From NCBI RefSeq assembly GCF_024355225.1, contig NZ_VCNH01000006.1, positions 1-49,868 on the forward strand: a stretch of 49,868 nt of DNA. Direction: 5' to 3'. The stretch is from Roseovarius sp. M141. Its GTDB lineage: Bacteria; Pseudomonadota; Alphaproteobacteria; Rhodobacterales; Rhodobacteraceae. The translations under genes were made by a program, and so were the position numbers. The notes beneath the pieces were generated by a model that saw nothing but the letters and a program-made list of their open reading frames with translations, searched no databases and was not told where the DNA came from. Every line of letters starts with the position of its first letter. Position 1 is the stretch's first letter. This document shows, piece after piece, positions 3,732 to 48,998 of the stretch.

Positions 3732-3741
3732 GATGGCCTTT

Positions 3742-6113: not shown

Positions 6114-6198
6114 CTATCAGATCAATCTGTTTGGAACTGAGGGTGAGCGCTTTGGATATCATCCATAGAGGAACGCCTAACCACGTGAAGGTGCCGCA

Positions 6199-6975: not shown

Positions 6976-6995
6976 TCCGACAGTATAAAGATAGA

Positions 6996-9104
<2,109 letters not shown>

Positions 9105-9336
9105 CAGTTTATCTCCAGCGACAGAAATGTGCGCGCAACAGGGGAATTATCGAACAGAACAAATGCTACGCTGCGCAATGTTTCGGAACTTCCATCTAGA
9201 TTGATGCAACCGGACATAAAATCGTGCTTACCCCTCTTCTCGCAGTCAATCTGCAAAATTCACCAGACGTCCGCCTTGCTTCGGGACGGCTGGAGTCTTG
9301 GCAGACGGCTCACTCTCCATTCGCGCTAGAAAAATC

Positions 9337-10272: not shown

Positions 10273-10280
10273 CCGGGGGG

Positions 10281-25076: not shown

Positions 25077-27965
25077 ATGGCGCACCGCAGCATCCTGACC
25101 GAGCGCCAGCGTTCGGCCCTTTTTGATCTCCCTATCGATGAACTTTCGCTCCTTCGACATTACACGCTTGCCGATGACGACCTTGACCACATCAACGCAC
25201 GGCGTCGCGCCGAAAACCGGATCGGCTTCGCCCTGCAACTATGTGCCTTGCGATACCCTGGGCGACTTCTGTCTTCCCATGAGGTCATTCCCGAGCAGGC
25301 CATTCGCTTTATTGGAGCCCAACTGGGTCTGACAGGTGATGAAATCCTACCCTATGCGGCGCGGCGCCAAACCCGACAGCAACATCTGCAGGAGCTTCGG
25401 GAAATATACGGCTACAAAATGTTCTCTGGGCGTGGTGCGCGTGATCTGAAGGGCTGGCTTGAACGAGAGGCAGAGACTGCTCGATCAAATGAGGGCCTCG
25501 CCCGGCGGTTTGTCGAGGAATGCCGCCGCACCCAGGCGGTCCTGCCCGGTGTGTCTGTTATCGAACGGCTTTGTGCTGACGCCCTCGTCGCCGCCGAGCG
25601 CCGCATTGAGAGCCGGATCACTGACCGACTGAATGATAAGCTGAAGGGCCGGTTGGATAATTTATTAACGGAGATGGTCGATGGCACGGTCAGCCGGTTC
25701 ATCTGGCTTCGGCAGTTTGAGGTCGGCAAGAATTCGGCGGGGGCCAGCCGCCTTCTTGATCGCTTGGAGTTTTTACAGGAGATGGAGTTGGCACCCGACA
25801 TTCTTGAGGGTTTGCCGCCCCACCGGGTTACGCAACTGCGCCGTCAGGGCGAACGATATTTTGCCGATGGCCTGCGAGACATTACCAGCGACCGGCGCCT
25901 GGCCATTCTCGCGGTCTGCGCCATAGAATGGCACGCGGGGATTGCCGATGCGGTGGTCGAGACCCATGACCGGATCGTGGGTAAGACCTGGCAGGATGCG
26001 AAAAGGTTGTGTGACACGCGCATAGCGGATGCAAAATCCGCCCTGCACGACACACTTCGCTCCTTCAAAGCCTTGGGCGCTGCCCTTTTGGAGGCCAAGG
26101 GGGATGAGGCCTCCCTTGATGTGGCAACCGAAATGTCCTGTGGTTGGCTTCAGCTTGAAGGTCTTGTGGCAACCGCCGCCGAACTGACGAATACGATGTC
26201 CGCTGACCCTATAGTCCATGTCGTGCAAGGGTATCATCGGTTCCGGCGATATGCACCGCGTATGCTGCGAGCTTTGGATATCCACGGGGCCGCTGTGGCG
26301 CGGCCCTTGGAGCAAGCGGCACAGATCATTGCTGATGATGGGAATAGCAAATCTCAATCCACAAGCTTTCTACGGCGTGGTTCCAAATGGCACCGCCACC
26401 TTAACGCTCAGGCGACCGATGATCACCGGCTCTGGGAGGTGGCCGTTCTGTCCCATCTCCGCGAAGCGTTTCGATCGGGCGATATCTGGCTGGCCCATTC
26501 ACGTCGTTATGCAGATCTGAAAGAGGTCTTGGTTCCGGTTGAAGCTGCACAGGCCACGCCCAGATTGACCGTTCCGTTTGATCCGGAAAGCTGGCTTGAA
26601 GACCGCAAGGCGCGGCTGACAGATGGGCTTGACCGGCTGGCAAAGGCAGCGCGGTCTGGGGCCATTCCCGGCGGCTCCATAGAAAACGGCGTTCTGAAAG
26701 TTGACCGGCTGCCCGCAGCCGTGCCCGAAGCAGCAGAGGCTCTGGTGCTTGCTCTCTATGATCGCCTGCCCGCCGTGCGCATCACCGATTTACTGCAGGA
26801 GGTCGATGAAGACATCGGCTTCACAGATGCCTTCACCAACGTGCGCACTGGCTCCCCCTGTACCGATCGCATCGGGCTGCTGACCGTATTGCTGGCCGAG
26901 GGGCTAAACCTTGGGTTGAGTAAAATGGCCGAGGCCACCAATACCCACGATTACATGCAGCTCTCGCGCCTGTCGCGATGGCATATTGAAAGCGACGCAA
27001 TTAACCGCGCGCTCGCCATGGTGATTGACGCGCAAGCGGGCCTGCCCATGGCCAAGTTCTGGGGCGGCGGCGTCACCGCGTCCAGCGACGGACAATTCTT
27101 CCCCGCCGCGAGGCAAGGTGAAGCGATGAATCTTATCAACGCCAAATACGGATCTGAGCCAGGGCTAAAGGCTTACACGCATGTCTCCGATCAGTTTGGA
27201 CCCTTCGCAACACAAACCATTCCCGCCACCGTGAGCGAAGCACCCTACATCCTGGACGGGCTGCTGATGAACGAAGCGGGCCGAAAGGTCAAAGAGCAGT
27301 ATGCTGACACCGGTGGCTTCACCGACCACGTCTTTGCCGTCACCTCGCTGCTGGCCTTCCGGTTTATTCCGCGCATACGGGACCTCCCCTCGAAACGGCT
27401 GTATCTCTTTGACCCGGCCGCCGCGCCGAAGGAGCTGCGCGGCCTGATCGGCGGCAAGATCAGGGAGGGCCTCATCGTCCAGAACTGGCCGGATATCCTG
27501 CGGGCCGTGGCCACGATGGCGGCGGGCATCATGCCGCCCAGTCAGTTGCTCAAGAAGTTTGCGGCCTATCCACGACAGCATGAGCTTGCACTTGCCCTGC
27601 GTGAAATCGGTCGCATCGAGCGCACGCTCTTCATCATCGACTGGCTGCTTGATGCCGACATGCAGCGTCGTGCCCAGATTGGCCTCAACAAGGGCGAGGC
27701 CCATCACGCCCTAAAAAACGCCCTGCGCATCGGGCGGCAGGGCGAAATCCGCGATCGGACCGTCGAAGGTCAGCACTACCGTATGGCAGGGCTGAACCTG
27801 CTGGCCGCCATCATCATCTACTGGAACACCAAGCACCTCGGGCAGGCTGTCACACGGCGCCAACACGTCGGATTAGACTGTCCATCCGATCTCCTGGGGC
27901 ACATCTCGCCTCTCGGATGGGCACACATCCTCCTCACAGGCGAGTATAAGTGGAAAAAACGATGA
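25077..27965 (+). CDS. tnpA: Tn3-family transposase TnpA
   Basis: A 962-aa DDE transposase of normal length for the family. The N-terminal region holds the DUF4158-type DNA-binding part (RSILTERQRSALFDLPIDEL), and the C-terminal half holds the DDE catalytic domain, with SSDGQFFP and later ELALALREIGRIERTLF. It catalyses replicative transposition using the 38-bp ends. No frameshift or stop interrupts it. Confidence 0.95.
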   Translation: MAHRSILTERQRSALFDLPIDELSLLRHYTLADDDLDHINARRRAENRIGFALQLCALRYPGRLLSSHEVIPEQAIRFIGAQLGLTGDEILPYAARRQTRQQHLQELREIYGYKMFSGRGARDLKGWLEREAETARSNEGLARRFVEECRRTQAVLPGVSVIERLCADALVAAERRIESRITDRLNDKLKGRLDNLLTEMVDGTVSRFIWLRQFEVGKNSAGASRLLDRLEFLQEMELAPDILEGLPPHRVTQLRRQGERYFADGLRDITSDRRLAILAVCAIEWHAGIADAVVETHDRIVGKTWQDAKRLCDTRIADAKSALHDTLRSFKALGAALLEAKGDEASLDVATEMSCGWLQLEGLVATAAELTNTMSADPIVHVVQGYHRFRRYAPRMLRALDIHGAAVARPLEQAAQIIADDGNSKSQSTSFLRRGSKWHRHLNAQATDDHRLWEVAVLSHLREAFRSGDIWLAHSRRYADLKEVLVPVEAAQATPRLTVPFDPESWLEDRKARLTDGLDRLAKAARSGAIPGGSIENGVLKVDRLPAAVPEAAEALVLALYDRLPAVRITDLLQEVDEDIGFTDAFTNVRTGSPCTDRIGLLTVLLAEGLNLGLSKMAEATNTHDYMQLSRLSRWHIESDAINRALAMVIDAQAGLPMAKFWGGGVTASSDGQFFPAARQGEAMNLINAKYGSEPGLKAYTHVSDQFGPFATQTIPATVSEAPYILDGLLMNEAGRKVKEQYADTGGFTDHVFAVTSLLAFRFIPRIRDLPSKRLYLFDPAAAPKELRGLIGGKIREGLIVQNWPDILRAVATMAAGIMPPSQLLKKFAAYPRQHELALALREIGRIERTLFIIDWLLDADMQRRAQIGLNKGEAHHALKNALRIGRQGEIRDRTVEGQHYRMAGLNLLAAIIIYWNTKHLGQAVTRRQHVGLDCPSDLLGHISPLGWAHILLTGEYKWKKR

Positions 27966-27973
27966 AGGGCTGG

Positions 27974-28011
27974 CTTAGGGTGTCATTCTGCACTCAGCCG
28001 GAATCTACCCC
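27974..28011 (-). repeat. Right 38-bp inverted repeat of the Tn3-family element
   Basis: Read inwards it begins GGGGTAGATTCC and ends ACACCCTAAG; one mismatch to the left end, at position 6. Confidence 0.93.
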
Positions 28012-28013
28012 TT

Positions 28014-28229
28014 ATGCGTCTGGTTCCGATTTATCAGGAACCCAACACCAGCAAAAAGCATCCGCAGCATAAGATCTGGCCATATCTGTTGCGCAATCTG
28101 GTGATCGACCGCCCGAACCAGGTCTGGTGCGCTGACATTACATACATCCCGATGCAGCGTGGTTTTCTGTATCTCGTGGCGATCATGGATTGGCACAGTC
28201 GCAAGGTTCTGAGCTGGCGATTATCGAAC
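28014..28229 (+). pseudogene. IS3-family OrfB fragment, left part
   Basis: About 72 codons including [13 protein letters not shown] and [20 protein letters not shown], the first catalytic Asp region of the rve (DDE) integrase domain. It is interrupted after WRLSN by the IS2-group insertion. Confidence 0.85.
28225..28229. repeat. 5-bp target duplication, left (CGAAC)
   Basis: CGAAC here recurs at 29539-29543, exactly flanking the IS2-group element; 5 bp is usual for this group. Confidence 0.8.
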
Positions 28230-28285
28230 TGAACTGGCCCCCTTTTCGACCGGACACTTGGGCATAACCATGGAGGCTTAGGTAT

Positions 28286-28681
28286 ATGCCTGAGCACGTG
28301 CTTATGTCTGAGATAGAAATCATCACTGATGGCGGCCGTCGTCGTCGCTGGAGCGCGGCCGAGAAGCTGCGCATTGTCGAAGAAACGCTGGATGACCGGG
28401 CCAGCATTTCTGTGGTCGCACGCCGCAATGGCGTGGCCCCCAATCTATTGTATCGTTGGCGCAGGCTCATGCTGGAGGGGGGAAGTGTCGCCGTGTCAGA
28501 GGATGATGATGTCACAAGCAACAAGGTCGTCCGACAGATGGAAGATCGCATCCGTGAACTCGAACGCCAGCTTGGCCGCAAAACGCTGGAGGCCAAGATC
28601 CTGCGCGAGGCGTTGGACAAATCACGCTCAAAAAAACAGACCTTGCACGTGCGGTCGCCTCTGAGGGGAGATTTCCAGTGA
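28286..28681 (+). CDS. IS2-group OrfA (helix-turn-helix protein)
   Basis: A 131-aa protein with an N-terminal helix-turn-helix ([20 protein letters not shown], then [16 protein letters not shown]) and a leucine-zipper-like helix (about 75-110). It binds the IS ends. An internal start at 28304 (MSEIEI) is possible. It overlaps OrfB by four bases. Confidence 0.88.
28630..28636 (+). promoter_or_regulatory. Candidate -1 programmed frameshift site (A7)
   Basis: A run of seven A, read as TCA AAA AAA in OrfA. A -1 slip continues as [16 protein letters not shown] and joins OrfB in frame, giving the OrfAB transposase. IS3-family elements use such slippery A-runs. Confidence 0.65.
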
Positions 28682-29511
28682 AGGTCGTGGCCGAAACAGT
28701 GGGTGTGGCCCGCTCGAACTTGATTGACAGGTTGAACAACAGGACGAAGCCGCGTCGGCGCTACTATAAAGCGCAAGACGCGGCGGTGGTGCCGCTGATC
28801 ACGACGCTGGTGGCGGCCCGACCGACCTATGGCTACCGGCGGATTACGGCAATCCTTAACCGGCAACTGCGCGCGGAAGGGCTGGCAGCCGTCAACCACA
28901 AAAGGGTCTATCGCATCATGAAGGCACACAACCTGCTTCTGGCACGGAAATACACGCAGCGCCCGGAGCATGTTCACGACGGCAAGGTCATCGTCATGCG
29001 CTCGAACCTGCGCTGGTGCAGCGATGGCTTCGAGTTCACCTGCTGGAACGGTGACATCGTCCGTGGCGCCTTTATCATCGATGCTCATGACCGCGAAATC
29101 ATCGCTTGGCGCGCCGTGGTGAACGCCGGGATCAGTGGCTCTGACATCCGCGACATCATGCTCGAGGCCGTGGAACGCCGCTTTGGTCATCATCGTGCGC
29201 CGTCGGTCATCGAGATGCTGTCCGACAACGGCTCGCCCTATATCGCGAGGGACACGCAGATCTTCGCCCGCCAATTGGGCCTGAAGCCATGCTTCACGCC
29301 GGTCCAAAGCCCACAGAGCAATGGCATCTCGGAGGCATTCGTGAAGACGCTGAAGCGCGACTACGTCCAGGTGACGCCTCTACCGGACGCCCACACAGTT
29401 CTTGGATTGATCGGAGCTTGGATCGAAGACTACAATGACAACCACCCGCACTCAGGGCTGAAAATGCGCTCGCCACGTGAGTTCATCGCAGCTCAAACCG
29501 CAACCGCCTGA
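28678..29511 (+). CDS. IS2-group OrfB transposase (DDE integrase domain)
   Basis: A 277-aa protein with an HTH_21-like N-terminal part (YGYRRITAILNRQL) and an rve domain: Asp in WCSDGFEF, Asp in LSDNGSPYIA and Glu in ISEAFVKTLKRDY. It starts with GTG overlapping the OrfA stop; the active transposase is more likely the OrfAB fusion made at the A7 site. Confidence 0.9.
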   Translation: MKVVAETVGVARSNLIDRLNNRTKPRRRYYKAQDAAVVPLITTLVAARPTYGYRRITAILNRQLRAEGLAAVNHKRVYRIMKAHNLLLARKYTQRPEHVHDGKVIVMRSNLRWCSDGFEFTCWNGDIVRGAFIIDAHDREIIAWRAVVNAGISGSDIRDIMLEAVERRFGHHRAPSVIEMLSDNGSPYIARDTQIFARQLGLKPCFTPVQSPQSNGISEAFVKTLKRDYVQVTPLPDAHTVLGLIGAWIEDYNDNHPHSGLKMRSPREFIAAQTATA

Positions 29512-29996: not shown

Positions 29997-30299
29997 TTAC
30001 TCAGCTGCGATCAAAGTGGGTATCTCTGATACATCAACCGCACGCGACGCCTGCCATTCATCATAGGCACCCTGCATCCTGATCCAAAGACCGGCACCGT
30101 TGCCAAACAACTTGCCAAGGCGGACAGCGACCTCAGGGCTTACGGGTTTCCGTTCGGCCAGGATGTCATGCAGATGCTGCCGGGAAATACCTAGTAACCG
30201 GGAAATCTCTGCCTTCGATTTTTTGACTTCTGGAAGTACATCTTCGCGCAGCAGTTCGCCTGGATGCGTAGGGCAGCGGTTCGGGTTACGGCTCATCAT
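29997..30299 (-). CDS. higA: HigA-family antitoxin
   Basis: A 100-aa XRE-type antitoxin: PTHPGELLREDVLPE is the HigA N-terminal signature, with a helix-turn-helix in ISRLLGISRQHLHDIL. It neutralises HigB and probably represses the operon. It lies six bases after the toxin stop, in the inverted order (toxin first) typical of higBA. Confidence 0.93.
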   Translation of the reverse strand: MMSRNPNRCPTHPGELLREDVLPEVKKSKAEISRLLGISRQHLHDILAERKPVSPEVAVRLGKLFGNGAGLWIRMQGAYDEWQASRAVDVSEIPTLIAAE

Positions 30300-30305
30300 C
30301 GTCTC

Positions 30306-30581
30306 CTAGTGATATTGCTCAAAATCGAGCACATACGCATTGCCATCGTTGAACTCAAAAGTGACACACCATGGCCCGTTTATATGGACGGTATAGCGCG
30401 TTGGCTTGTGTCCTTTGAGAGCATGAAAGTCGAAACCGGGTAACTTCATATCTTCAAGGCTTGTCGCAGCGTCTAGTGCATCCAACCGTCGAAGGATGCG
30501 CGCATGAAACCTAGCATCAATTTTGGACTTTCCTGTTTCCCAAAGAGCCTTGAGTTGTTTGTTGTCGAAGGTCTTTATCAT
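30306..30581 (-). CDS. higB: HigB-family toxin (RelE superfamily)
   Basis: A 91-aa ribosome-dependent mRNA interferase family member: IKTFDNKQLKALW at the start, the LPGFDFHALKGHKPTRYTV block and GPWCVTFEF at the active strand. First gene of higBA; it helps retain the plasmid by killing or arresting cured cells. Only five bases separate the predicted -10 from its ATG, so the message may be leaderless. Confidence 0.93.
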   Translation of the reverse strand: MIKTFDNKQLKALWETGKSKIDARFHARILRRLDALDAATSLEDMKLPGFDFHALKGHKPTRYTVHINGPWCVTFEFNDGNAYVLDFEQYH

Positions 30582-30722: not shown

Positions 30723-31001
30723 TTATAGAGAATCTTGGTAGGTTTCCCACATCTGTTCAATGAGTTGCCCTTGAGTGATGCCGAGGCGTTCGGCTTCACT
30801 CGCTATGGCCTCCCCTACCCTTGGGAAAACTTTGGGGTGCAGCTGATATGTTCGAGGGCTTGGCTTTCGGCCAGGTTTTTTCCTGGGTGTGCGGTCTACA
30901 AAGCCTCTGGCTTCGCCAACCTCGTCAACTTTCCGAACTTCGGCGGGGCCAGTGTCTTTTGGCCGTGCTGTAAGACCTGCTAGTCTATTTGAGCCGCTCA
31001 T
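30723..31001 (-). CDS. Small basic protein, probable partition partner of ParA
   Basis: A 92-aa protein: the N-terminal half is basic and probably disordered (RTPRKKPGRKPSPRT), and the C-terminal half is helical (PRVGEAIASEAERLGITQGQLIEQMW). It overlaps the end of parA by 17 bases on the same strand. Small ribbon-helix-helix or helical proteins encoded directly after a short ParA are usually the centromere-binding factors of type Ib systems (ParG- or omega-like). I see no clear family match, so the role rests on context. Confidence 0.6.
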   Translation of the reverse strand: MSGSNRLAGLTARPKDTGPAEVRKVDEVGEARGFVDRTPRKKPGRKPSPRTYQLHPKVFPRVGEAIASEAERLGITQGQLIEQMWETYQDSL

Positions 31002-31653
31002 ACACTGCCTCCGTAAATGCTGTGGCGTTCAACAAAGCCCTGTCCACCTTGCCGCCAGTCACAATCTCAGGGTTGTTCAACATCGATGTGAGATCACCGC
31101 CATAGGCAAACAGTTCTGAGAACGCCGCGCGAGCCACCAGTGACGGTTCGATCATATCGATCCCTGCCCCGCGTAATTGATTTTCTAGCTCTTTTTGCAC
31201 CCGGCTCTTAACCGCTGCGCTTGTCTTGGTCAGAACTACCGCGTGTCTGATGGTCCGGTTCAGAGCTTCTTCCTCTTCCCGAACAAGCGCTAAAGCCTCC
31301 GATCCGATCTCAGCGTCCAGTGCAGTTGGCTGCATCGGCACGATGACTAGATCAGCCTGTGAAATGGCACGGCTCACCAGTTGTGAAGCGACACCTTCAA
31401 GATCGACAATCACGATCTTGCCGTCTCCATCCGCATTTTTGATTGTGGTCACAATCTCTGAACGCCCAATGTCGCTGTGAAGTGTGACGCCCTTAGGCAG
31501 TCCGTGGGATGCCCAACGTGTAAGAGACTTGTTCGGGTCACAATCCAAGGCAGTCACACCAGCGCCCATCCGAGCGAACTCTGATGCCAACAGAACTGCG
31601 CATGTAGACTTTCCAACTCCGCCCTTGGGGCTCGCCATTACGATGACTGGCAT
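30985..31653 (-). CDS. parA: ParA-family partition ATPase
   Basis: A 222-aa ParA with a deviant Walker A motif SPKGGVGKST (signature Lys10 and Lys15), Walker A' at ALDCDPNKS and Walker B in IVIVDLEG. The short form without an N-terminal DNA-binding domain is type Ib, whose regulation depends on the small partner protein. Its promoter lies within the upstream 18-bp repeat array. It moves plasmid copies to daughter cells. Confidence 0.92.
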   Translation of the reverse strand: MPVIVMASPKGGVGKSTCAVLLASEFARMGAGVTALDCDPNKSLTRWASHGLPKGVTLHSDIGRSEIVTTIKNADGDGKIVIVDLEGVASQLVSRAISQADLVIVPMQPTALDAEIGSEALALVREEEEALNRTIRHAVVLTKTSAAVKSRVQKELENQLRGAGIDMIEPSLVARAAFSELFAYGGDLTSMLNNPEIVTGGKVDRALLNATAFTEAVYERLK

Positions 31654-31660
31654 TCAACTA

Positions 31661-31804
31661 ACCTGCTTTATTTTTCTTACCAGAAATGTATCTCTAACCT
31701 GATTTAAATTCAATACCTGTTATTTTTCTTATACCAGCATTATTTATATTACCGGATTTAAACCCCACACCTGTTTTATTTCCATAACCGGTTTTCAATC
31801 CCGT
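31661..31804. repeat. Eight-unit array with exact 18-bp period (candidate parS/operator)
   Basis: The pentamer ACC(T/A/G)G begins at 31661, 31679, 31697, 31715, 31733, 31751, 31769 and 31787: eight units exactly 18 bp apart, each followed by an A/T-rich 13-mer. Variants are ACCTG (four), ACCAG (two) and ACCGG (two). The array fills the gap between repA and parA and covers the putative parA promoter, the layout of type Ib centromeres that double as operators. Confidence 0.82.
31685..31713 (-). promoter_or_regulatory. Putative parA promoter within the 18-bp array
   Basis: On the minus strand: -35 TTGAAT (31708-31713), a 17-bp spacer and -10 TACATT (31685-31690), with the parA ATG about 30 bases downstream behind GCAGGTTAG. 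The promoter covers two array units, so binding to the array would repress it. Confidence 0.5.
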
Positions 31805-32847
31805 CATGGACGACCCCTTTTCTCAAACCAACTCTCACAAAACTTGATGTAGTGCTTAGTTGGGTGTTTCGGCTCGATCTCTTCTTTGCCGCACCAACGA
31901 CGCCACTCATGCTCCAGATGCCGGGTATCCCAGCCAGGAGCAGCTTCCCGCGCAGCATCATACGCATCTGGCTCAAGTCGCCCCTCGAACACGTCTTCTT
32001 GTGGAGTAGGGACCGAACCACGGGAATAAAACACCGCCTGTGAACCCTCAAGACGAAAGCTATAATCTGGGATGTGATCGTGAGCGACATCTTCCGCAAC
32101 GATCTTAGAAATAAGGCGTTTAAACTCTTTGTCAGTGGAGTAGGAGCCGCATTTGTCCTTGAGCTTAGTCAGGCCGATGGCCCAACGCTGCTTATATCCA
32201 CAGTGCTTTCGTGCAATCTCATAAAGACGGCGTTCCAACGGCTTTCGAAGCCGAAAATAGTTTCGGCTGAGCGTAAGAACTTCACGCGCGTTGATGGCAT
32301 TGAACACCCAGTCCGACAGCTTAACTTCGATTTCCTGCATCCGACCATCGCGGGTTTCCCTAACGATACGGTAGCGGTCAATCAGGCCGAAGCCATCTAG
32401 TACTTCAGTGTCTGCCGTTGTGATGTTCGTGGCAATACGAGTCCCGGAAAGCCGCTCAAATGCGGCTCTGAGCTGCTCATAGCCGCGTCCATCAGTGCCT
32501 CGGTTCGTTGAGGTAAGTAGGTCAAACGCCTTGAAACGTATCGTTTGGTTGACCTCTCGACCATCATTTAAAGCCGCAATCACTTGAGAGATACAGAAGA
32601 TCAGGATGTCTCGATCATAAACGGTTGCTAGTCCCTTTACCGAAGGAACAACTTCGACAAAAACATCACCATTCTCATATCGACGGATGTTCTTATCAGG
32701 CTTTGTAGAGATCGAAAAAACGGGATGCTCCATTGAAGCCATATCGCCCTTGGGCGCAGCATCAAAGATATCGCAGACGAAGAAATCGCCTTGCTGCATT
32801 CGGTCCGGCAGAAGAGGGGACCGTGCTTTCGTGTTATTACCCACCAT
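31804..32847 (-). CDS. repA: Plasmid replication initiator RepA (RPA family)
   Basis: A protein of about 347 aa of the RPA replication-initiator family found on alphaproteobacterial plasmids. The conserved opening SPLLPDR, then DFFVCDIFDAAPKGDMASME and HPVFSISTKPD, is present; winged-helix DNA-binding regions follow. It would bind the six iterons and open the AT-rich region. The start at 32847 is chosen because SPLLPDR lies downstream of it; a start at 32799 would lose it, and a TTG at 32877 would extend it. The first codons (MVGNNT) are encoded by iteron 1. Confidence 0.88.
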   Translation of the reverse strand: MVGNNTKARSPLLPDRMQQGDFFVCDIFDAAPKGDMASMEHPVFSISTKPDKNIRRYENGDVFVEVVPSVKGLATVYDRDILIFCISQVIAALNDGREVNQTIRFKAFDLLTSTNRGTDGRGYEQLRAAFERLSGTRIATNITTADTEVLDGFGLIDRYRIVRETRDGRMQEIEVKLSDWVFNAINAREVLTLSRNYFRLRKPLERRLYEIARKHCGYKQRWAIGLTKLKDKCGSYSTDKEFKRLISKIVAEDVAHDHIPDYSFRLEGSQAVFYSRGSVPTPQEDVFEGRLEPDAYDAAREAAPGWDTRHLEHEWRRWCGKEEIEPKHPTKHYIKFCESWFEKRGRP

Positions 32848-32977
32848 GTACCCTAAATTCGTGTTATTGCACACCAAGTCAAGTTATTTCGTGCTAACAC
32901 ACACCAATCAGCAGAAACGTGCTATTACACACCAAGTTTCGTGCTATTGCACACTGTTGAACGTGTTACCACACACT
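32830..32977. repeat. Six RepA iterons
   Basis: Six direct copies of CGTGYTAnnnCMCACY at 32830, 32860, 32890, 32918, 32940 and 32962; spacing 30, 30, 28, 22 and 22 bp. Most share TTATTACACACC-like cores. The last three are one turn-phase set (22 bp), the first three another (30 bp). Confidence 0.9.
32854..32882 (-). promoter_or_regulatory. Weak candidate repA promoter overlapping iteron 2
   Basis: On the minus strand: TTGACT at 32877-32882 and AATTTA at 32854-32859, 17 bp apart. Iteron 2 fills the spacer exactly, so RepA could repress its own gene. The -10 is poor. Confidence 0.3.
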
Positions 32978-33090
32978 GCGCTTTCACGTAAGATACTGTT
33001 TAGTCACACTAAAGTAGCATAAAAAATTAGCGTAACACATATATTAACTCATATTTAACACAAGAAGCTGCCTAGAAATCTATGCAAATA

Positions 33091-33308
33091 CAACTGCACC
33101 TAACCGTTTAGACGCCTACAGCCGCTGGCTGCGCCTTCTGGTCTCTCGGGCGCTTCAGAACATCGCACGGGACGCAGACGCGTCTTGTAAGCTGCCGTAG
33201 GCATCATCGTGCGCCGATGACTGCTATGCGGGACAAAACCGCCAACCGGACGGCACCAATGAATGTCCTCTTCGCGGCAAAATAGAATTTGTATCTGAGG
33301 CAACAAAT
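33091..33308. other. Intergenic stretch without recognised feature
   Basis: The 218 bp between oriV and the terminator of the glycosyltransferase operon hold no frame that looks like a protein and no repeat that I could see. It returns to high GC, unlike oriV. Confidence 0.5.
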
Positions 33309-36845: not shown

Positions 36846-37892
36846 CTATACCACGCTCAATTGCGCGCGCCTCGCGGGGGCGTGCTCCAGCAGCTGCGCC
36901 CAGTCCCCGGCGACCCGGCCCAGCCGGAAGGCGGGATTGGCCGTGACCTGTGGCAGCGCGCGGCGCCATGCGCGGATGCGGGCGAGGATCTGCGCCGGGT
37001 CGTGTCCGTCCACGCGCTGCTCCGCATCTCCTACGATCTCGGCATTGGCGCCCAGTCTATCATGCACCAGCACGGGGGTGCCGATCGCATTGGCCTCGGC
37101 CAAGACCAGGCCGAAGGTCTCGGCGAATGTCGTCTGGGGGTAGAACAGGCAAAGCGCACGTCGCATCTGCCGGATGAGCGCCCCATGGGACAGCGAGCCT
37201 AGAAAGACCACCCCCTCCGGCACCGGCCCGGTGTCCCAGCGCAGATAGCCGGGATCGGCGACGGCCAGGGTCAGGTTCGGAAGATCACGGCGCAGGGTAG
37301 CAAACTGGCGGAACACCTCCGCCAGCCCCTTGTGCGGTGAACTGGCGAAAAGCAGCCGGTCGGGGTCGCGTGGCGTGGCATCGGGATGAAGGGCATCGTC
37401 GAGCGGATTGTATATCACCCGGATGCGCGGCACATCTTCCGCCCCGAGGAAATCCGCAAGCGCACGCGCATGCGTTTTGGAAACGCAGATGACGGTGATG
37501 TCGGCCGCTTTCAGCGCCGGGCCCATCTTTCGGTTGTGACGGCCGGGATAGACGTGCAACCAAAGAAAAATCGGTGTGTCCGGGTGCTGCCTGCGCAGCT
37601 TGATTGCGACCTTCCAGCGGTTGATGACGATAAGTGCGGCGGGTCTTTGCTGCTCATCGAGGTCTTGCAGCGATCGCAACTGGCCCGCTCTCGACAAGTG
37701 TCGATGGCTGCGACCGTTCTGGTAATGCGTGATCTCGAACCGGGGGCTAAGCGCGGTGGCCACCCGCAGCACCGTGGCCTCGGTGCCGCCAAGCCCGCCG
37801 GTCTCGAGATCGGGCAGGTCGTAACCCGCGGCAGAGCACGGATCGACGATCATCAGAGGCACACGCCGGGTCTCATTTCGAAGCACTTTCAT
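36846..37892 (-). CDS. GT4-family glycosyltransferase (complete copy)
   Basis: A 348-aa GT-B retaining glycosyltransferase. The N-terminal half has GGLGGTEATVLR; the C-terminal half has the donor-binding signature FAETFGLVLAEANAIG (E-x7-E) near residue 265. It would add a sugar from an NDP donor to a lipid- or glycan-bound acceptor in the cytosol. The start overlaps the previous GT2 stop by ATGA. This is the only complete copy, because copy 1 is cut by the window start. Confidence 0.9.
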   Translation of the reverse strand: MKVLRNETRRVPLMIVDPCSAAGYDLPDLETGGLGGTEATVLRVATALSPRFEITHYQNGRSHRHLSRAGQLRSLQDLDEQQRPAALIVINRWKVAIKLRRQHPDTPIFLWLHVYPGRHNRKMGPALKAADITVICVSKTHARALADFLGAEDVPRIRVIYNPLDDALHPDATPRDPDRLLFASSPHKGLAEVFRQFATLRRDLPNLTLAVADPGYLRWDTGPVPEGVVFLGSLSHGALIRQMRRALCLFYPQTTFAETFGLVLAEANAIGTPVLVHDRLGANAEIVGDAEQRVDGHDPAQILARIRAWRRALPQVTANPAFRLGRVAGDWAQLLEHAPARRAQLSVV

Positions 37893-38857
37893 TGCGCGGC
37901 CATTTCTGTCACCGGGGCGGAGGCGAGGATCCGCTCGACCCGGGCCGACGTGGCGGGCGTGACCGGGATGTCGCGCCGCGCCAGCAGGTCGGGCCGGCTG
38001 ACATGGCTGATGCCGAGGGTCGGGATATCGACCGGCACGGACTTGACCCTGCCGTTCTGCCGCCAGTCCTCGACCTTGGCCCAGACCTTCTGCCGGTCCG
38101 CCTTACGTCTGGCGCTGTCGTAATCCGAGACTGCGGATTGCGTCAGGCTGTCCGGGGTCTCGATCTTGGTCAGCAACAGTTCGGGAACGATCCAGATGAC
38201 CTCGCCGTTCAGGATCAGCCGGTTGCGGAATTCCCGGTCCTCCTCGATGCAATCCTCGAACCCGCCGAGGCGGCGGAACACATCCGAACGGAAGAGACCC
38301 GAATTGATATGTGTCCATTCCCCCGGCACCTGCGCGCCCATCTGAAGGTTCGGGAACACGTCATCGAGCAGGGACAAATCGCGCCGGATCTCGACGCGAC
38401 GCCCGTCCGGCAGGATCAGCTCATGGTGGGTGAGTGCCGCGCTGACCTCCAGCCGCTGCCCCGCCTCCTTGTTCGCCAGTTGCCAGTTCAGGCAGTCGTC
38501 GGCCCCGATATCCTGCGCGGTCAACACGCGGACCTGCTGCAACACCTTGTCGCGATGCGGGATGTCGTCGGAATCGTGGAACGTGATCGCGTCGCCCGCA
38601 GTCAGCAAAAGACCCGCGTTCTTGGCGTTGGCGGTGCCGAGGTTTCGCGACAACCGGATATAGTTGAAACGCGGATCAGAGAGGAACGGCTGCACCGCGC
38701 TTTCGATCGCGTCCGTGCTGGCGTCGTCGATGACCGTGACGCGGATGTTCCACCAGCTTTGCTCCAGTGCGGCTCGGATGGCTCCGGCGATCAGATGCGC
38801 GCGGTTGTAGGTGGGGATGACGATATCGACCAAGGGGGCGAGCAGGTCGGATGTCAT
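37889..38857 (-). CDS. GT2 glycosyltransferase (intact copy)
   Basis: The complete 322-aa form of the gene broken at 370-1339. GT-A fold: VDIVIPTYNRAH (nucleotide site), VIDDASTD, FHDSDD at the metal site, then GEWTHINSGLFRSDVFRRLG in the acceptor half, which is lost in the frameshifted copy. No membrane segment. It overlaps the upstream GT2 stop and the downstream GT4 start by four bases. Confidence 0.9.
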   Translation of the reverse strand: MTSDLLAPLVDIVIPTYNRAHLIAGAIRAALEQSWWNIRVTVIDDASTDAIESAVQPFLSDPRFNYIRLSRNLGTANAKNAGLLLTAGDAITFHDSDDIPHRDKVLQQVRVLTAQDIGADDCLNWQLANKEAGQRLEVSAALTHHELILPDGRRVEIRRDLSLLDDVFPNLQMGAQVPGEWTHINSGLFRSDVFRRLGGFEDCIEEDREFRNRLILNGEVIWIVPELLLTKIETPDSLTQSAVSDYDSARRKADRQKVWAKVEDWRQNGRVKSVPVDIPTLGISHVSRPDLLARRDIPVTPATSARVERILASAPVTEMAAQ

Positions 38858-40323
38858 GTGGAAACCTCCGTCAGGGGTGGGGCGATCGCGGCGCGATAGG
38901 CGCGCAGGCTTGTGTCGGTCAGCAGCGCGGCGGGCAGCGGCAGCAGGAGCGCCAGCAGCGCGGCGCGGATCAGCGGCTCCGTGGGTTGCACGCCGAGCAG
39001 CAGCAGGATCGCGGTGAGGAAGACCATGAGATGACAGGCGGAGAGTGAGGGATCGCCCTTGCCGCGGCCTTGTCGGTGACCACGAATGTCAGGCGGCAGC
39101 CCGTCAGCGCGTCGAAGGTTGCCTTGGCCGATTGCGGGGCCAGCGCGATGCGACAGGCCAGTGCGTGCAGGATAACCGGAAGGGCTTGCCCGTCGCGGAT
39201 CCCGCGCACGACGACGCGGGTCGTGATGTCAGCCAGGCCGAGCAGGATAGCCCCCGCAGCCAGCGTGGCGGCGACCGTTTGCCCCTGTCCGGTCAGCAGC
39301 CAGACCGTCAAGAGCGCGGAGGGAACCAGTGCGAGGCTGAACCAGGCGGTCAGTTGCGACAGGATGACGAGCCGCTTGTGCAGGTTGAAATTGCCGACAG
39401 GGGTGAGGATCGTTCGCCCATGTCGCAGCAGGGTCTGGACGTTGCCGCTGCACCAGCGATACCGCTGCTTTTCGAGATCACGCAGGGACAGCGGCAGCAG
39501 GCCCTTGCCCACGACCCGGTTGATAAACCGCCCGGTAAAACCGGCGTGGCAAAGCCGCACGCCCAGGTCCGCATCCTCCGTCGTGGTGACACCGGACCAA
39601 CCCCCCTACGTCAATCAGCGCCGCTTTCGAAATCACGCAGAGCGTGCCGGTCAGCAGCACTGCCTCGGCCTCGTCTGCACCGGCGGCGTCGGTGCGAAAA
39701 TATTCTTCGAGCTCGGCATCCACACCCGGTGCGGTGGTCGTCGTGGCAACATAAGATTGCGGAAACTGCACGTAATCCGCCCCGGTCCGATGCAACGCCT
39801 CAGCGGCGCGGCTCAGAAAATCGCGATGGACGACATAATCCGCATCGACAGTTACCACATGGGTCGCATCGGCGCGCGTGTGCGCCAGCGCGATGTTGAG
39901 CGCGCCGGCCTTGGCGCCGCGCACGCCCATCCGGTGCAGGAAGGTGATCCGACACGGATGCGCCGTGCAGAAGGTCGCGACCGGCTTCCACAGCGCGGGA
40001 TCGGCCGTGTTGTTGTCCATAACGATGATCTCGTAGCCACCTGACGGCCAGTCCTGATCGAGTAAGGCCCGCAGGGTGCGGATCACCAAGTGAGGCGGTT
40101 CCGAATGGGTCGCAACATGAATTGAAAATCGCGGGGTAACGGATCTCTGCTGACCTGCTGTCAATGACGTGGGCAAACAGGCGATAATTGGCCGAAGAGC
40201 CATCAGGGCAACCTGAATTGCAACGATGGCGGCGCAAACGATCATGCCCACTGTCGGAACGGCAGCGGACAGAATCAGTATTCCACAGATTGCGACAAGC
40301 CGTAGTTTCACACTCGCCCCCAA
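38854..40323 (-). CDS. Processive-type GT2, frameshifted in this copy
   Basis: Second copy of the 489-aa enzyme at 1336-2805. One extra C at 39601-39606 breaks it after the TED-preceding region and a missing C near 39064 restores the original frame, so the middle third is misread. The intact frame in copy 1 shows these are errors. Confidence 0.8.
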
Positions 40324-40511
40324 GCGTTAAATTTCGATAAATATTATTTACAATCAGTAGTTTGTCCGGTTCGGACGCTACCGAAGAGGTAACAACTCTC
40401 GTTGCTGTTTAGTTCCCGCGGGCAGGGCAATTCGCAATCCATGCCGACGCTTCGACAATGCGCCAGACCGCCTGCCCCCGCTTTCAACTGGATTGAATTG
40501 GTTTTCCGTCT

Positions 40512-41249
40512 CTAGTCTTGCGGAAACCACGAAGTATCCATGTCGGCGTAGCGATCATGGAAATCCGTAAGTTCGATCATCGCATCTTCTCTAAGAATCC
40601 GGAGGCGATTCTGATCGCGGTGAATGTAGCCATCCTCTTCCATCCGGATGAAGGTCTTGCTGATGTAAACGTTGGTAAGGCCCAGATAATCGGCAATCTG
40701 GCTCTGGGTCATTGGCAGGCGAATGGTGTCGGTCATATCCCGGTTGGTGATCCTGAGCCGCGCGATCAGATCCAGCAGCATGTAGCTGACCCGTTCTTGC
40801 GCACTCATCCGGCCCATTGCACGGAGCACATCGATCAAAACGACTTGGTCGCGAAGCGCTATCGACAGCAAAAGTGCCGAAAGCCGCGGAGATCTGCGCA
40901 GGATTTCGTCGAGCGACGACTTTGGAAACGGACACAGGCACACTTCTTCGACAGTGCGCAGTGTGGTCGTGGAGTGCTTAAGGGCGACGTCGGGGAAACC
41001 GATGATGTCGCCGGGATGATGGATCTTGACGATCTGGCGGCGGCCATCGGGCAGATCGGTATAGCTGAAGGCCCAGCCATGCTTCACGACATAGAGGTCC
41101 TTGTTCTCGTCACCCCCCTGATACACCTCATATCCGGCACCAAAGTTGCGCTCTGCCTTCTCTAGTGTAGCCAATCTGTCCCGATCCGCATCTGACAGGG
41201 AGACGTAGTGTGAGAGCTTCGTAACGAGGCAACTGGATTTGCTGGACAT
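40512..41249 (-). CDS. Crp/Fnr-family regulator (copy 2)
   Basis: Identical 245-aa protein to that at 2994-3731. Here its start is cleanly separated from the MgtC stop by ten bases, which supports two genes. Confidence 0.88.
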   Translation of the reverse strand: MSSKSSCLVTKLSHYVSLSDADRDRLATLEKAERNFGAGYEVYQGGDENKDLYVVKHGWAFSYTDLPDGRRQIVKIHHPGDIIGFPDVALKHSTTTLRTVEEVCLCPFPKSSLDEILRRSPRLSALLLSIALRDQVVLIDVLRAMGRMSAQERVSYMLLDLIARLRITNRDMTDTIRLPMTQSQIADYLGLTNVYISKTFIRMEEDGYIHRDQNRLRILREDAMIELTDFHDRYADMDTSWFPQD

Positions 41250-41259
41250 GATGGCCTTT

Positions 41260-41703
41260 CTATTTGCCCCCCCGGATGTGAAGCCAGTCAAAAATGTTGA
41301 GAACGATGAAGATCAGCGCTGAGATGAACGCCGCCTCTTTCAGGTAACCTAGCCCGCAGGCGATACCGATCGACCCTACGGCCCAGATCGCCGCGCCGCT
41401 GCGAACGCCCTTGAGCCGTCCATCGTCGCTGGGCGACATGATCGCCCCCGCTCCGAGGAAGCCGATACCGCCGACAATACCTTGGATCAGACGGGTGGGA
41501 TCGATCGACATGGCCTCGTCCTCGGCCATACTGCTCAGGGCAAAATTAAGGGTGACTGCCATCAAGGCGGCAGAGCCAATGGCGACCAGGACATAAACTC
41601 CTGCCCCTAAAGGCTTGCCCTTGATCTCGCGATCAAGCCCGACGACCAACCCGCATGCGCCGGAAAACAGGACGCGGAGTATGAACTCACTGAAATCGAC
41701 CAT
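41260..41703 (-). CDS. MgtC/SapB-family membrane protein (copy 2, natural end)
   Basis: With seven C at 41267-41273 the frame ends HIRGGK and stops, giving a normal-sized MgtC/SapB protein of 147 aa (159 if the TTG/ATG start at 41739 is used). Confidence 0.85.
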   Translation of the reverse strand: MVDFSEFILRVLFSGACGLVVGLDREIKGKPLGAGVYVLVAIGSAALMAVTLNFALSSMAEDEAMSIDPTRLIQGIVGGIGFLGAGAIMSPSDDGRLKGVRSGAAIWAVGSIGIACGLGYLKEAAFISALIFIVLNIFDWLHIRGGK

Positions 41704-41875
41704 TATCGAAAACTTACCTCCGCAGATTGTCGTCATCAACTTTCCTTAGCTGTAATTGCAGGTATCGGGTTTAATCTGCATTGAGAAACGGTAAACGGTC
41801 TATGGCTATGGTCGCATGTTGGACCGGCAATCCCTCCGGATGAAAAAGAAACCTTTCCGACAGGAGGAAACACGA

Positions 41876-42391
41876 ATGTTTTTTGACGGATTCGTCATTG
41901 ATGCCTTTGCCAAGGGTGTCCTGTTGAGCGCGGCTGGCATTGCCTGGATCATCCTGCTAGTCCGCGTGGTCGGCCTGCGGTCGTTCTCAAAAATGACGAA
42001 TTTCGACTTCGTGATGACCGTCGCCATGGGCTCGCTTCTGGCTGGGGCGTCGCAGTCGCAGGAATGGACAGGATTTCTTCAGACGCTGACGGCGATGGCC
42101 ACCCTTTTTGCCGTCCAGTATTTCGTCTCGCGGCTGCGGCACTGGTCGCCGCGGCTGGACGCGCTGGTTCAGAACACGCCGGTTTGTCTGATGAAGGACG
42201 GCGTCATCCTGCATGACAACCTGCGCGCGACGCGTGTGGCCGAGGAAGACCTGCTCGCCAAACTGCGCGAGGCGAACGCGCTGGAGCTGTCGACGGTGCG
42301 CGCCGTGGTGCTGGAAACGACCGGCGATATCTCGGTGCTGCACGGCGATCATGTGGATGAGGTCCTGTTCAAGGGCGTCGCCGAGGACTGA
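41876..42391 (+). CDS. DUF421 membrane protein (copy 2)
   Basis: Same as 4357-4872; no difference seen. Confidence 0.85.
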   Translation: MFFDGFVIDAFAKGVLLSAAGIAWIILLVRVVGLRSFSKMTNFDFVMTVAMGSLLAGASQSQEWTGFLQTLTAMATLFAVQYFVSRLRHWSPRLDALVQNTPVCLMKDGVILHDNLRATRVAEEDLLAKLREANALELSTVRAVVLETTGDISVLHGDHVDEVLFKGVAED

Positions 42392-43632
42392 TGGAAAACG
42401 CCACTTTCTTCGAATTCAGCCCCTATCATCTGACCCTCGCGGTCGTCGGCTGCATCGTGATCCTGTCACGCTGGTTTCCACGGCTCATTTCATCGCGCGA
42501 ACCGGCGGCCGCGCCGCTGATGATCCTGCTGGGGGCCGGAGCCGTCTTGATGATCCCCGGCCTGCCCGCGCCCCCCGATCCGCGCACGGCGCCGCTGCTG
42601 TGGGAGGTGATGGCAGAGATCACCGTCATCGTTGCGCTCTTCGCGGCGGGCATGCGGGTCGACAGCCTCGGGCCGCCGGGAAAATGGGCACCGACGCTGC
42701 GGCTGCTCCTGATCGCGATGCCCCTGACCATCGCGGCGGTCGCGTTCCTCGGCGTGGTGCTGGGCGGGCTGACCGCCGGAGCTGCCGTTCTGCTGGCCGC
42801 CGTGCTTGCACCCACCGACCCAGTCCTTGCCGCCGACGTGCAGATCGCGCCGCCGCAGGAGGGACAGGAACATCCGGTGCGTTTCGCCCTGACCACGGAG
42901 GCCGCGCTGAACGACGGGCTGGCCTTTCCGTTCGTTTATCTCGGCCTGATCCTCATTGCGCAGGGTTTGGCCCCCGCTGAATGGGGGCTTCAGTGGTTGC
43001 TGGAGGACGTGATCTACCGGATTTCCATCGGGGCCGCGATGGGCTGGGCCGGGGGGTGGCTGCTGGGCCAGATACTGTTCAACCTGCCGCGCGAAACCCG
43101 GCTGGCCGATACTGGCTCGGGAGTGATCGCGATTGCCGGGGTGTTCCTGTGCTACGGCTCCACCGAACTGGTCGAAGGCTATGGTTTCATCGCCGTGGCC
43201 GCGATGGGCCTATCGCTCAGGCGTATTGAGAGCGAACACCACTATCATCGGCATCTGCACGATTTTTCGGAATCCATCGAACACGCCCTGACGGCGCTTT
43301 TGCTTATCGCTCTGGGAGCCCTGCTCCCCACTCTGGCAGCGGACCTGACCTGGAGCCATGTCGCCATCGCGGTGCTGCTGATCGTGGTGCTGCGCCCGCT
43401 TGCCGGATGGATATCGTTGACGGCAAGCGCGCTGGCCCGTCCCGACCGAGCGGTTGTTGCCGTCTATGGGGTGCGCGGGATCGGGTCGATCTATTATTTG
43501 GCCTATGCGACAGGCTACGCCGAACTCGATAACCTGTCCGACCTGTGGATCATCACCGCACTGACGATTTTCCTGTCGACCGTCCTGCATGGTTTCACAG
43601 TGGGCTGGAGCATGGAAAAGATCGGGAGATGA
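42391..43632 (+). CDS. CPA1-family cation:proton antiporter (copy 2)
   Basis: Same as 4872-6113; no difference seen. Confidence 0.88.
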   Translation: MENATFFEFSPYHLTLAVVGCIVILSRWFPRLISSREPAAAPLMILLGAGAVLMIPGLPAPPDPRTAPLLWEVMAEITVIVALFAAGMRVDSLGPPGKWAPTLRLLLIAMPLTIAAVAFLGVVLGGLTAGAAVLLAAVLAPTDPVLAADVQIAPPQEGQEHPVRFALTTEAALNDGLAFPFVYLGLILIAQGLAPAEWGLQWLLEDVIYRISIGAAMGWAGGWLLGQILFNLPRETRLADTGSGVIAIAGVFLCYGSTELVEGYGFIAVAAMGLSLRRIESEHHYHRHLHDFSESIEHALTALLLIALGALLPTLAADLTWSHVAIAVLLIVVLRPLAGWISLTASALARPDRAVVAVYGVRGIGSIYYLAYATGYAELDNLSDLWIITALTIFLSTVLHGFTVGWSMEKIGR

Positions 43633-43717
43633 CTATCAGATCAATCTGTTTGGAACTGAGGGTGAGCGCTTTGGATATCATCCATAGAGGAACGCCTAAC
43701 CACGTGAAGGTGCCGCA

Positions 43718-44494
43718 ATGTCGCTAGTTATCGGACTTTTAGGATGGCTTTTCCTGATCATCGTCACGACGGACTTTCTGATCACGACGGCTGGCACAAA
43801 CGATAGCAGTCCAATCGCGATACGTGTGGCCCGGACCGCATTCCGCCTGTTCAGGCGACTGCCCGACACGGACATCAAGCACAAGATCATCGGCCCGCTG
43901 GTCGTGGCAACCGTGGCCACATGGTGGATCCTGAGCGTGAACCTGTCCTGGGCGATGATCTTTTACGGCATCACTGGATCAGTCGTGGACCAGAGCAGCG
44001 GGTTGTCGGCAAGCCCGGTCGGATTCATATCGCACGTCGGTCATCTCCTCTCGACGGTTGGAGGCGGCACGACATCGCCTGCCACATCGACTATCTCACT
44101 CCTGGGTGTAGTGGTCGGTGTGAATGGCATGGTTGTCCTGACACTCGGCGTGAGCTTTGTCATGGCGACCACTCAAACGGTGGTCCATGGGCGCAAACTT
44201 CTACTATACCTTCACGCCAGCCAAGACGATAACCTCATGCTTTTGAAGGATCTGGCAGGATTGACCGCCGAACTGAACGCCGCTCCCTTTGCGCTATTTT
44301 TCAGTCATCAGGATCCAGAAATGAGGGTTCCGGAGAGACTGACAGAAGTGTTTGCCCATAGGCTTGATGACGCGGAGACAGACTGGGCACATCTGGCCCG
44401 GGCACTGCCTTATTTCCGGCAATATTCCGGACCCGACGTCTCATCAAAGCTGCAGGAATGGCTCAGGGATTTCTCCGCCCGCCATATGCCGTGA
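43718..44494 (+). CDS. Channel-like membrane protein (copy 2)
   Basis: Same as 6199-6975; no difference seen, so the TVGGG filter-like sequence is confirmed by both copies. Confidence 0.55.
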   Translation: MSLVIGLLGWLFLIIVTTDFLITTAGTNDSSPIAIRVARTAFRLFRRLPDTDIKHKIIGPLVVATVATWWILSVNLSWAMIFYGITGSVVDQSSGLSASPVGFISHVGHLLSTVGGGTTSPATSTISLLGVVVGVNGMVVLTLGVSFVMATTQTVVHGRKLLLYLHASQDDNLMLLKDLAGLTAELNAAPFALFFSHQDPEMRVPERLTEVFAHRLDDAETDWAHLARALPYFRQYSGPDVSSKLQEWLRDFSARHMP

Positions 44495-44514
44495 TCCGAC
44501 AGTATAAAGATAGA

Positions 44515-46624
<2,110 letters not shown>

Positions 46625-46857
46625 CAGTTTATCTCCAGCGACAGAAATGTGCGCGCAACAGGGGAATTATCGAACAGAACAAATGCTACGCTGCGCAATG
46701 TTTCGGAACTTCCATCTAGATTGATGCAACCGGACATAAAATCGTGCTTACCCCTCTTCTCGCAGTCAATCTGCAAAAATTCACCAGACGTCCGCCTTGC
46801 TTCGGGACGGCTGGAGTCTTGGCAGACGGCTCACTCTCCATTCGCGCTAGAAAAATC

Positions 46858-47635
46858 ATGGAACATGTTTCGATAGACCTCTGGGCTGCCAATCTTGAAT
46901 CGAGCGTGCAGGATCTGCAGACGTGGCTCGCCGCTCTGGAAGCGCGGGTCGCACAGACGGCAGCGCGGGGCGGACACATGTTGGTCCTTCCCGAGTTCGC
47001 CTGTGCCCAGTGGTTGAATTTTGCCCCGGCAGATATGGCGGAGGCGGATACCCTCGGCTGGCTCTTTGAATGTGGGCAGATATCGCTGGATGCGATTGCT
47101 ATAATCTCCGCGAACTATGGTGTCTCGATACTTGCCGGAACGATACCGTTGCGCGTACCGGGCCGGTGGACGGTATTGCCACATATTTCAACCGTGCATG
47201 GTTGATAACGCCGGATGGTGCGCGTCATAGCCAAGACAAACTGAGCTTGACCCCGCTCGAAGCTCAGGGCGCTGGCGGCATTACCGTCCATGGTGAATCG
47301 ATAAATGTCATCGAATGGAACGGGCTACGGATCGCTATGATCATTTGCCTCGACAGCGAATTTACGGACTTGTGGTCCCGACTGGGGACTCTCGATCTCG
47401 ATCTGGTGATCATTCCTGCCAAAACAGACATGATTACCGGCTACAACAGGGTGTTCGGCTGCGCGCGTGCGCGAGCCATCGAGCTTCAGACTGTTGTGTG
47501 TGTTCTGGGCGCAGTCGGAGTGCCCTTCGGTGCCGCGCTGACGGATTCGGGCGTGGGCGGCGCCAGTGTCTTTACGCCTTGCGATATCGGCGTTTCACTT
47601 GATGGCATTCACGCGGCGATCGCGCCCCAGACTGC
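46858..47635 (+). pseudogene. CN-hydrolase, frameshifted and 3'-truncated in this copy
   Basis: Two extra bases near 47149-47163 break the frame after residue 98, and the last 160 bases (C-terminal 53 residues) are removed by the 274-bp deletion whose junction is at 47635/47636. Compare the intact gene at 9337-10272. Confidence 0.8.
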
Positions 47636-48660
47636 GCCGCATGTCCGCCGGACCAGGCGTGTCCTGCACCATGGACGACCCACTGCTCGGTGTAGGGACG
47701 TCCCCTGCCCACCCGATGCACGGTGCGGGTAAATTCACGGCCACCGTGAACGCGCCCTTTCTTTTCTGTCCGGTCAAGGGCGGCGAAAGGTTCGAGTGCG
47801 CGAATGGCGATGAAACGACCGTTGCGGGGGTTGATGACCTTATCCGCGTCGCCATGAAAAATGATGGTCGGCACTTGAGCATCAAGACGCTTGCCCGGAT
47901 CGCCACTTTGCATCGCTCTCGGAACGGATGCTGGATCATGAGCGGCTCCTACGGCCAGCCCCGAATGAACACCGACCGCCGCAAAGATATCGGAATATTC
48001 CGTTGCTAGGATCAACGCTGCTGCTGCCCCGGCAGACAGGCCCGCGACATAGACTCTGGAGGGATCGGCGTTCCAGTCGGCAATGATCTTGCGCGTCATG
48101 TCCGCCAGCAAAGCGGGTTCTCCCGCGCCCCGGTTCTGATCGCCCCGTCTATACCAGTTCCAGCACCGATAATGATGGGCGTCCCGCGCCTGATCCGGAT
48201 AAAGAACCAGAAAACCGAATTCCTCTGCCAGTGTATTCATCCCGGTGCCACGCGCAAAATCCTTCGACGATTGCCCACACCCGTGTAGCATGACGAGCAG
48301 CGGAAGCGGCGTCGTTGCCTTGTTCGCAGCGACCGGCACATAGAGCTTGTATGAACGGGTGCCAAAAGCGGTCTCATGTTGTCCGGCCTTGAACGTTGCG
48401 CCCCGCGGGGTCCTTGCTTGGGATCTGGTGGCAGGAACAGCCGCCCGGGCTTTGACTTTACCACTTCCGCCGCCGGCTGCACGCGACGGGCTGGCAGGCT
48501 TCACGGCTTTGCGCGCGGGCGTGCCGGGTTTTCTGGCTCTACGTTTCTTCGGTTTGGACGGGCCAAGGAGCGTGCTCCACATTTCGGTGATTGCGGAAGC
48601 GCCCGCGCGTCTTAGCTTGCGCTGTGTCTTCGCGCGTGCGCGCCTGAACGGATCGTGCAT
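47636..48660 (-). pseudogene. PHB-depolymerase-type esterase, 3'-truncated in this copy
   Basis: The deletion removes the final 35 codons, after GHAWSGGHAA; the frame then runs into the CN-hydrolase gene. The catalytic His region is just retained. Compare 10281-11411. Residue 63 is Gly here. Confidence 0.8.
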
Positions 48661-48998
48661 CTGACCTCACAAGCTCTGAAATATATGATACCGCGGTGTT
48701 TCACACACCGGGGTCCGCCGTTTCGCCGCCTGCTTGATTATGGCTGGCAACATGTCCGTTGCAGACGGGACGAGAAGCTCGTCTGCCTTTGCGTTGGCCA
48801 GAACGGGAAATCGGAAAAATCGCCCTGTTCTCCATACCGTCGTGTCCGATTGACATGCAACGGACATGTCTTGGTTTAACTCCGGCTTCGACTATTGGTT
48901 CATCAGCGAATAGACCTTTTTAATCGCTGCAAAACAAATGTATCGGTATTATCCACAAACCGATGAATTTCGTCATTCGACGGGTCTCGTAGCGTCCA
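48661..48998. other. Gene-poor stretch with the 14-bp inverted repeat (copy 2)
   Basis: Same as 11412-11749; no gene recognised. Confidence 0.5.

Follow-up and report, generated by a model that had tools for sequence, protein, structure and literature searches.

An eight-site array at 18-bp pitch between repA and parA of a Roseovarius replicon as a probable centromere and operator

An 18-bp array between repA and parA

We analysed contig NZ_VCNH01000006.1 of Roseovarius sp. M141 over its full 49,868 bases (hereafter the window), which encodes a replication initiator (RepA) and a partition operon (parAB) separated by a short repeat array that is probably the centromere and operator of that operon. 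The whole interval from the repA end (31804) to the parA start (31653) is taken up by the array. On the + strand it consists of ACCNG cores starting at 31661, 31679, 31697, 31715, 31733, 31751, 31769, and 31787, every step being 18 base pairs (bp) with zero slip; the fourth base is T in four cores, A in two, and G in two. Because repA, parA, and parB all lie on the - strand, the functional reading of the core is CNGGT followed by parA, with the cores beginning 138 to 12 bases before that gene. An earlier note on this DNA had reported these eight regularly spaced cores, and both their coordinates and shuffling confirm them: when the 150-bp intergenic region was shuffled 20,000 times by mononucleotide, a run of at least four cores at any period from 7 to 59 never appeared. 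No further ACCNG run of at least four at one period (7 to 59) was found on either strand of the window. When the 4.5-Mb genome was screened for three cores in phase, the array gave six matches (overlapping triplets) and three other places matched; the reversed control pattern gave 16 matches.

The intergenic region has a G+C content of 32%, as compared to 58% for the window. The earlier note called the filler between cores not conserved, which is wrong in part, as letters agree between units at a level of 0.481 versus 0.393 after within-unit shuffling (p = 0.0035). Read on the parA strand, position -5 is A in all eight units and position -9 is A in seven. A 54-bp super-repeat of three units, suspected by eye, was rejected (lag-3 permutation p = 0.64). 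The hexamer ACCGGT (core plus next base) occurs in the array only at the repA-proximal core. The parA-proximal core would occupy the expected place of the ribosome-binding site, where the related locus L010 carries CAGGA. Overlap of the array with the parA promoter, also claimed earlier, is unproved: a sigma-70 consensus scan of the array, which covers one promoter type only, returned 0 sites. A search of positions 31500-33100 against Rfam returned no RNA element at an E value of up to 1.

Type Ib partition systems, the class to which parAB-parS of Agrobacterium pTAR is assigned, pair a ParA of 192-308 amino acids (aa) that lacks an N-terminal DNA-binding domain with a ParB of 46-131 aa, according to the available passages of PMC3235114. 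The ParA encoded in the window falls within this range, and its ATPase domain starts within residues 1-4, leaving no N-terminal DNA-binding domain; its best solved relatives are ParF of TP228 (4dzz) and, tied with it, the ParA 5u1g. The ParB encoded beside parA is likewise within the type Ib size range. Comparison of ParB with Pfam and NCBIfam family models yielded nothing above the curated cut-offs and comparison with solved protein chains yielded no sequence match, while PHROGs returned a weak match to a ‘transcriptional regulator’ (E = 0.0045).

Table 1. Positions in the window of the array, its flanking genes, and associated repeats.
Feature	Coordinates	Strand	Description
parB	30723..31001	-	92 aa; predicted ribbon-helix-helix centromere-binding protein; 17-base overlap with the end of parA
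parA	30985..31653	-	222 aa; type Ib-like ATPase
parA-proximal core	31661..31665	-	Lies 8 to 12 bases upstream of the parA ATG
Array of 8 presumed ParB-site cores	31661..31791	-	Proposed parS and parA operator; pitch exactly 18 bp, core reading CNGGT on the parA strand
repA-proximal core	31787..31791	-	12 bases from the end of repA
Filler of last array unit	to 31804
repA	31804..32877	-	Replication initiator protein A (PF10134); start provisional; read from TTG, the gene extends into the iterons
Presumed RepA iterons	32828..32976	.	Six copies of a sequence close to TTCGTGYTATTNCACAC, in steps of 22-30 bp; motif differs from that of the array

Two pitches in two ParA clades

A tblastn search of plasmid records identified 31 records encoding a ParA with at least 80% identity, plus a body of alphaproteobacterial plasmids at 55-61%. 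A scan of genome contigs yielded 61 loci, and further loci came from 18 plasmid records and from genomes searched at the family level (295) and the class level (385), of which 18 and 3, respectively, had a ParB match (own genome counted). The ParB family comprised 501 proteins by single-sequence search and 1,750 by profile. A ParB homolog followed parA in 79 of the 80 loci found by ParA (window included), the exception being L046, where the contig ends; ParB also lay beside parA in all 20 further loci, these having been found by ParB. Among the 18 plasmid records, the small gene was annotated as ParB in 11 and as hypothetical in five, and was not listed in two (gene table incomplete). At one locus, L009 (NZ_CP010627.1), a 49-aa ‘hypothetical protein’ annotated over the array (2847-2996) is probably a false gene, and parB is unlisted in the incomplete gene table. 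We left out L065, which lacked upstream sequence, and L107 and L122, whose retrieved sequence showed no parA.

Sites were scored in the 250 bp before parA at 99 loci, window included. An 18-bp pitch was called in 73 loci and a 17-bp pitch in 18, with eight uncalled. The motif search on related plasmids that had been proposed earlier finds that the array accompanies parAB, being called by position and pattern in 91 of 99 regions. At least three in-phase sites occurred in 0.43% of shuffles. At least four were detected, by a looser count, in 1 of 393 stretches elsewhere in the window, in 8 of 2,492 stretches elsewhere in the relatives (the two best being arrays at the parB end of L084 and L086), and in 0 of 209 stretches around eight other genes of the ParA type in the genome. 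A quick-method tree built from 83 distinct ParA proteins, in which long rows such as L121 and L074 are of unsure placement, resolved two groups of 60 and 23 proteins, both with a Shimodaira-Hasegawa-like approximate likelihood ratio test (SH-aLRT) value of 100. All called members of the group of 60 had an 18-bp pitch, and all called members of the group of 23 had a 17-bp pitch except the ambiguous L103.

Several loci weigh against so tidy a partition. The scoring rule assigned L103 to the 18-bp set (four sites, longest run two), yet its ParA belongs to the 17-bp clade and three consecutive 17-bp palindromes are present; it was moved by hand to the 17-bp set for comparisons of symmetry, filler, and ParB, which gives counts of 72 (18-bp) and 19 (17-bp). 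No array was called by the scoring rule at L013, L073, L079, L082, L087, L112, or L119, and neither kind of array was seen in L074 (contig JAPOVX010000357.1). The last of these encodes a ParA (72%) and a ParB whose presumed ribbon, SWPLHPR, is the most divergent among the uncalled loci, with P and R replacing residues Q and K; it perhaps represents a third site type.

A core centered at -29 from the parA start was the nearest site in 38 of the 72 18-bp arrays. With gaps allowed, 70 of the 72 had at least four in-phase sites; runs of at least four sites free of gaps were found in only 51 of them and in 10 of the 19 17-bp arrays. The longest runs of 17-bp palindromes comprised 16 consecutive copies (L078) and 10 copies (L014).

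Besides their upstream sites, five of the 23 loci of the 17-bp clade (L084, L086, L081, L085, and L013) carried further arrays of the palindrome AYCNGRT at or just behind the end of parB (at about 2478-2546 in L084 and 2467-2645 in L086), and operator and centromere may be split at these loci. A second 18-bp array of five sites was identified in L068 (Gluconobacter), 549 bases before parA.

Site symmetry and the presumed ParB ribbon

The two clades differ in the symmetry of their sites. Those of the 17-bp clade are symmetric, each being the 7-bp palindrome AYCNGRT, and the 106 units (35 ATC-GGT, 23 ACC-GAT, 23 ACC-GGT, 17 ATC-GAT, and eight others) lack a strong direction. Sites in the 18-bp clade are polar: GGT lies on the parA strand in 307 of 317 units, and the opposite half-site is mostly A/T-A/T-C. 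An alternative count of in-phase sites placed 348 of 356 on the parA strand only, five on the other strand, and three on both in the 18-bp clade, as compared to 39, 24, and 23, respectively, of 86 in the 17-bp clade. In the 18-bp clade, A or T accounts for 88-100% of the letters at the eight positions to the left of the core, and G is favored at +8. Filler was phased within single arrays (p < 0.05 each) in 51 of 57 18-bp arrays, that of the window included, and in 6 of 11 17-bp arrays. Since the 18-bp arrays are closely related, their direction and filler partly reflect shared ancestry. Conservation of the core columns is partly built in, because the core also served as the motif for locating arrays; differences in filler and in ParB are free of that circularity.

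The presumed DNA-binding ribbon of ParB changes alongside pitch and symmetry. Among called loci with a ParB, it reads T[YHW]Q[LI]HPK in 71 of 71 proteins of the 18-bp loci and TGQ[VLI]HAK in 19 of 19 proteins of the 17-bp loci. Q, H, and K are fixed in both clades and, by analogy with known ribbon-helix-helix members, would face the bases. Directly before the ribbon, GR is invariant in all 99 ParBs and mostly forms part of a basic segment (for example KKPGRKPSPR or GKRGRPKSPR), which we take to resemble an AT-hook motif, with no model match; a segment of this kind would suit the A/T-rich flanks of the cores.

Function of the array

Gene content, position, co-conservation with parAB, and the predicted fold of ParB lend good support to the earlier proposal of a type Ib centromere and operator. 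We consider it probable (roughly 0.87) that the array serves as both parS centromere and autoregulatory operator in a type Ib parAB system with homology to a pTAR-like family of alphaproteobacterial plasmids, and the 92-aa ParB is its likely binder. We infer a mechanism in which each C-N-GGT core would be bound by one ParB ribbon-helix-helix dimer, the two-stranded ribbon entering the major groove and the arm before the strand (KKPGRKPSPR) occupying the minor groove of the flanking A/T-rich DNA. With one dimer per 18 bp, all eight would then make up a single regular protein-DNA complex. Each site is turned by 257 degrees relative to the one before it (18 bp, with 10.5 bp per turn), and therefore the dimers would follow a path around the DNA instead of stacking along one face. 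Positioned over the parA start region, the complex could repress parA-parB; it could also expose the ParB N-terminal tails to ParA, trigger the ATPase, and so move plasmid copies apart. A more tentative suggestion, to which we give somewhat less than even odds, is that ParB of the 18-bp clade is strict on one half-site and places its arm in the opposite A/T run, yielding a directional segrosome, and that plasmids of the two clades are kept separate by pitch and sequence.

The array might instead be an operator only, at which ParB represses parAB and blocks read-through from repA, with the true centromere elsewhere on the plasmid. It does sit 8 bases from the parA start, and L084, L086, L081, L085, and L013 of the 17-bp clade have, besides a short upstream run in phase, arrays located at the parB end or behind it. 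However, the window has no second ACCNG run of at least four in phase (1 of 393 other stretches by the looser count), eight sites over 131 bp exceed, in our judgement, what an operator needs, and type Ib centromeres sit upstream of the operon, according to the available passages of PMC5016525; we regard this explanation as improbable.

Binding of the array by RepA, as a site of incompatibility or copy-number control, is considerably less probable still, even though the last core lies only 12 bases behind the end of repA. RepA is an unlikely binder because repeats of another motif, typical of RepA iterons, are present at the far end of the gene (32828-32976). Moreover, the array of L011 keeps its pitch with no repA annotated in the fetched stretch, and L012 has a 17-bp array before parA although its repA is downstream. 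Least probable of all is that phased A/T blocks serve a host nucleoid protein or intrinsic curvature: the A/T letters of the filler are phased, but 18 bp corresponds to 1.71 helical turns (10.5 bp per turn assumed), and thus the blocks are out of helical phase and their bends would not add up, while the core (which is also the search motif) is the most conserved part and pitch tracks the ParA clade.

Several known partition systems come closest to the centromere and operator proposed here. On pTAR, a small ParB is reportedly encoded downstream of ParA, and an array upstream of parA, said to comprise 7-bp palindromes 10 bp apart at 17-bp pitch, reportedly serves as both centromere and operator. 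The 17-bp sister clade, with its 7-bp palindrome at 17-bp pitch, matches that layout. In contrast, the pitch in the clade of the window is 18 bp, its half-sites point one way, and a long run of A/T flanks them on one side; the array of the window, with its half-palindromic core, lacks the pTAR-type palindromes at 17-bp pitch that the sister clade shows. We therefore file it as a sister variant of the pTAR-like 17-bp clade rather than as pTAR-type proper, the likeness to pTAR being one of reported layout. Given this homologous clade, the earlier view that the system is of a kind not recognised was too strong.

Other systems also share features with the array. The TP228 parFGH system resembles that of the window in its ParF, as noted above, and in having centromere repeats separated by A/T-rich spacers, which may aid cooperative binding by a binder that also depends on its N-terminal tail; it differs in that its repeats are both direct and inverted (PMC5016525, in the passages available), and the ParB of the window matches no solved chain in sequence. 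On pSM19035, an array of short sites is read by the ribbon-helix-helix dimer omega, a fold predicted for the likely binder in the window, but the sites are contiguous heptads in both orientations rather than 18-bp steps in one, and ParA becomes fully active only with four or more contiguous sites (PMC9499535). As in the window, parS of pCXC100 has direct repeats only (PMC5016525). Three 13-bp repeats are described in another Paracoccus par promoter (PMC3832669). The available part of PMC3925955, on the 17-bp plasmid pAMI7, has no passage on a centromere. Among the literature matches listed, as judged by titles and abstract openings and with subscription literature mostly uncovered, none was a published description of the 18-bp array.

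Within one homologous partition family, lattice pitch (17 versus 18 bp) and symmetry thus differ by clade, and the ParB ribbon differs alongside. The symmetric 17-bp and polar 18-bp sets are related and natural, and their proteins differ at few presumed-ribbon positions; the pair bears on what determines site spacing in ribbon-helix-helix centromeres, on whether orientation matters, and on the part that pitch, polarity, and the N-terminal arm play in assembly and plasmid compatibility. The array also provides a simple sequence mark by which the centromere can be located in plasmids of a common Rhodobacterales group.

At its two ends (1-12621 and 37520-49868) the contig of 49,868 bases carries repeated sequence, with 99.9% identity over 10,122 bases and 99.7% over 2,235 bases, and the replicon is therefore probably circular, at about 37.5 kb, the overlap having been left untrimmed. 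Behind parB (29997-30581) lie a HigB-like toxin gene and a helix-turn-helix gene, likely a toxin-antitoxin pair; a similar pair is encoded further on in L009. A Tn3-family transposase gene and an rve-domain transposase gene (25077-29511) adjoin this maintenance region.
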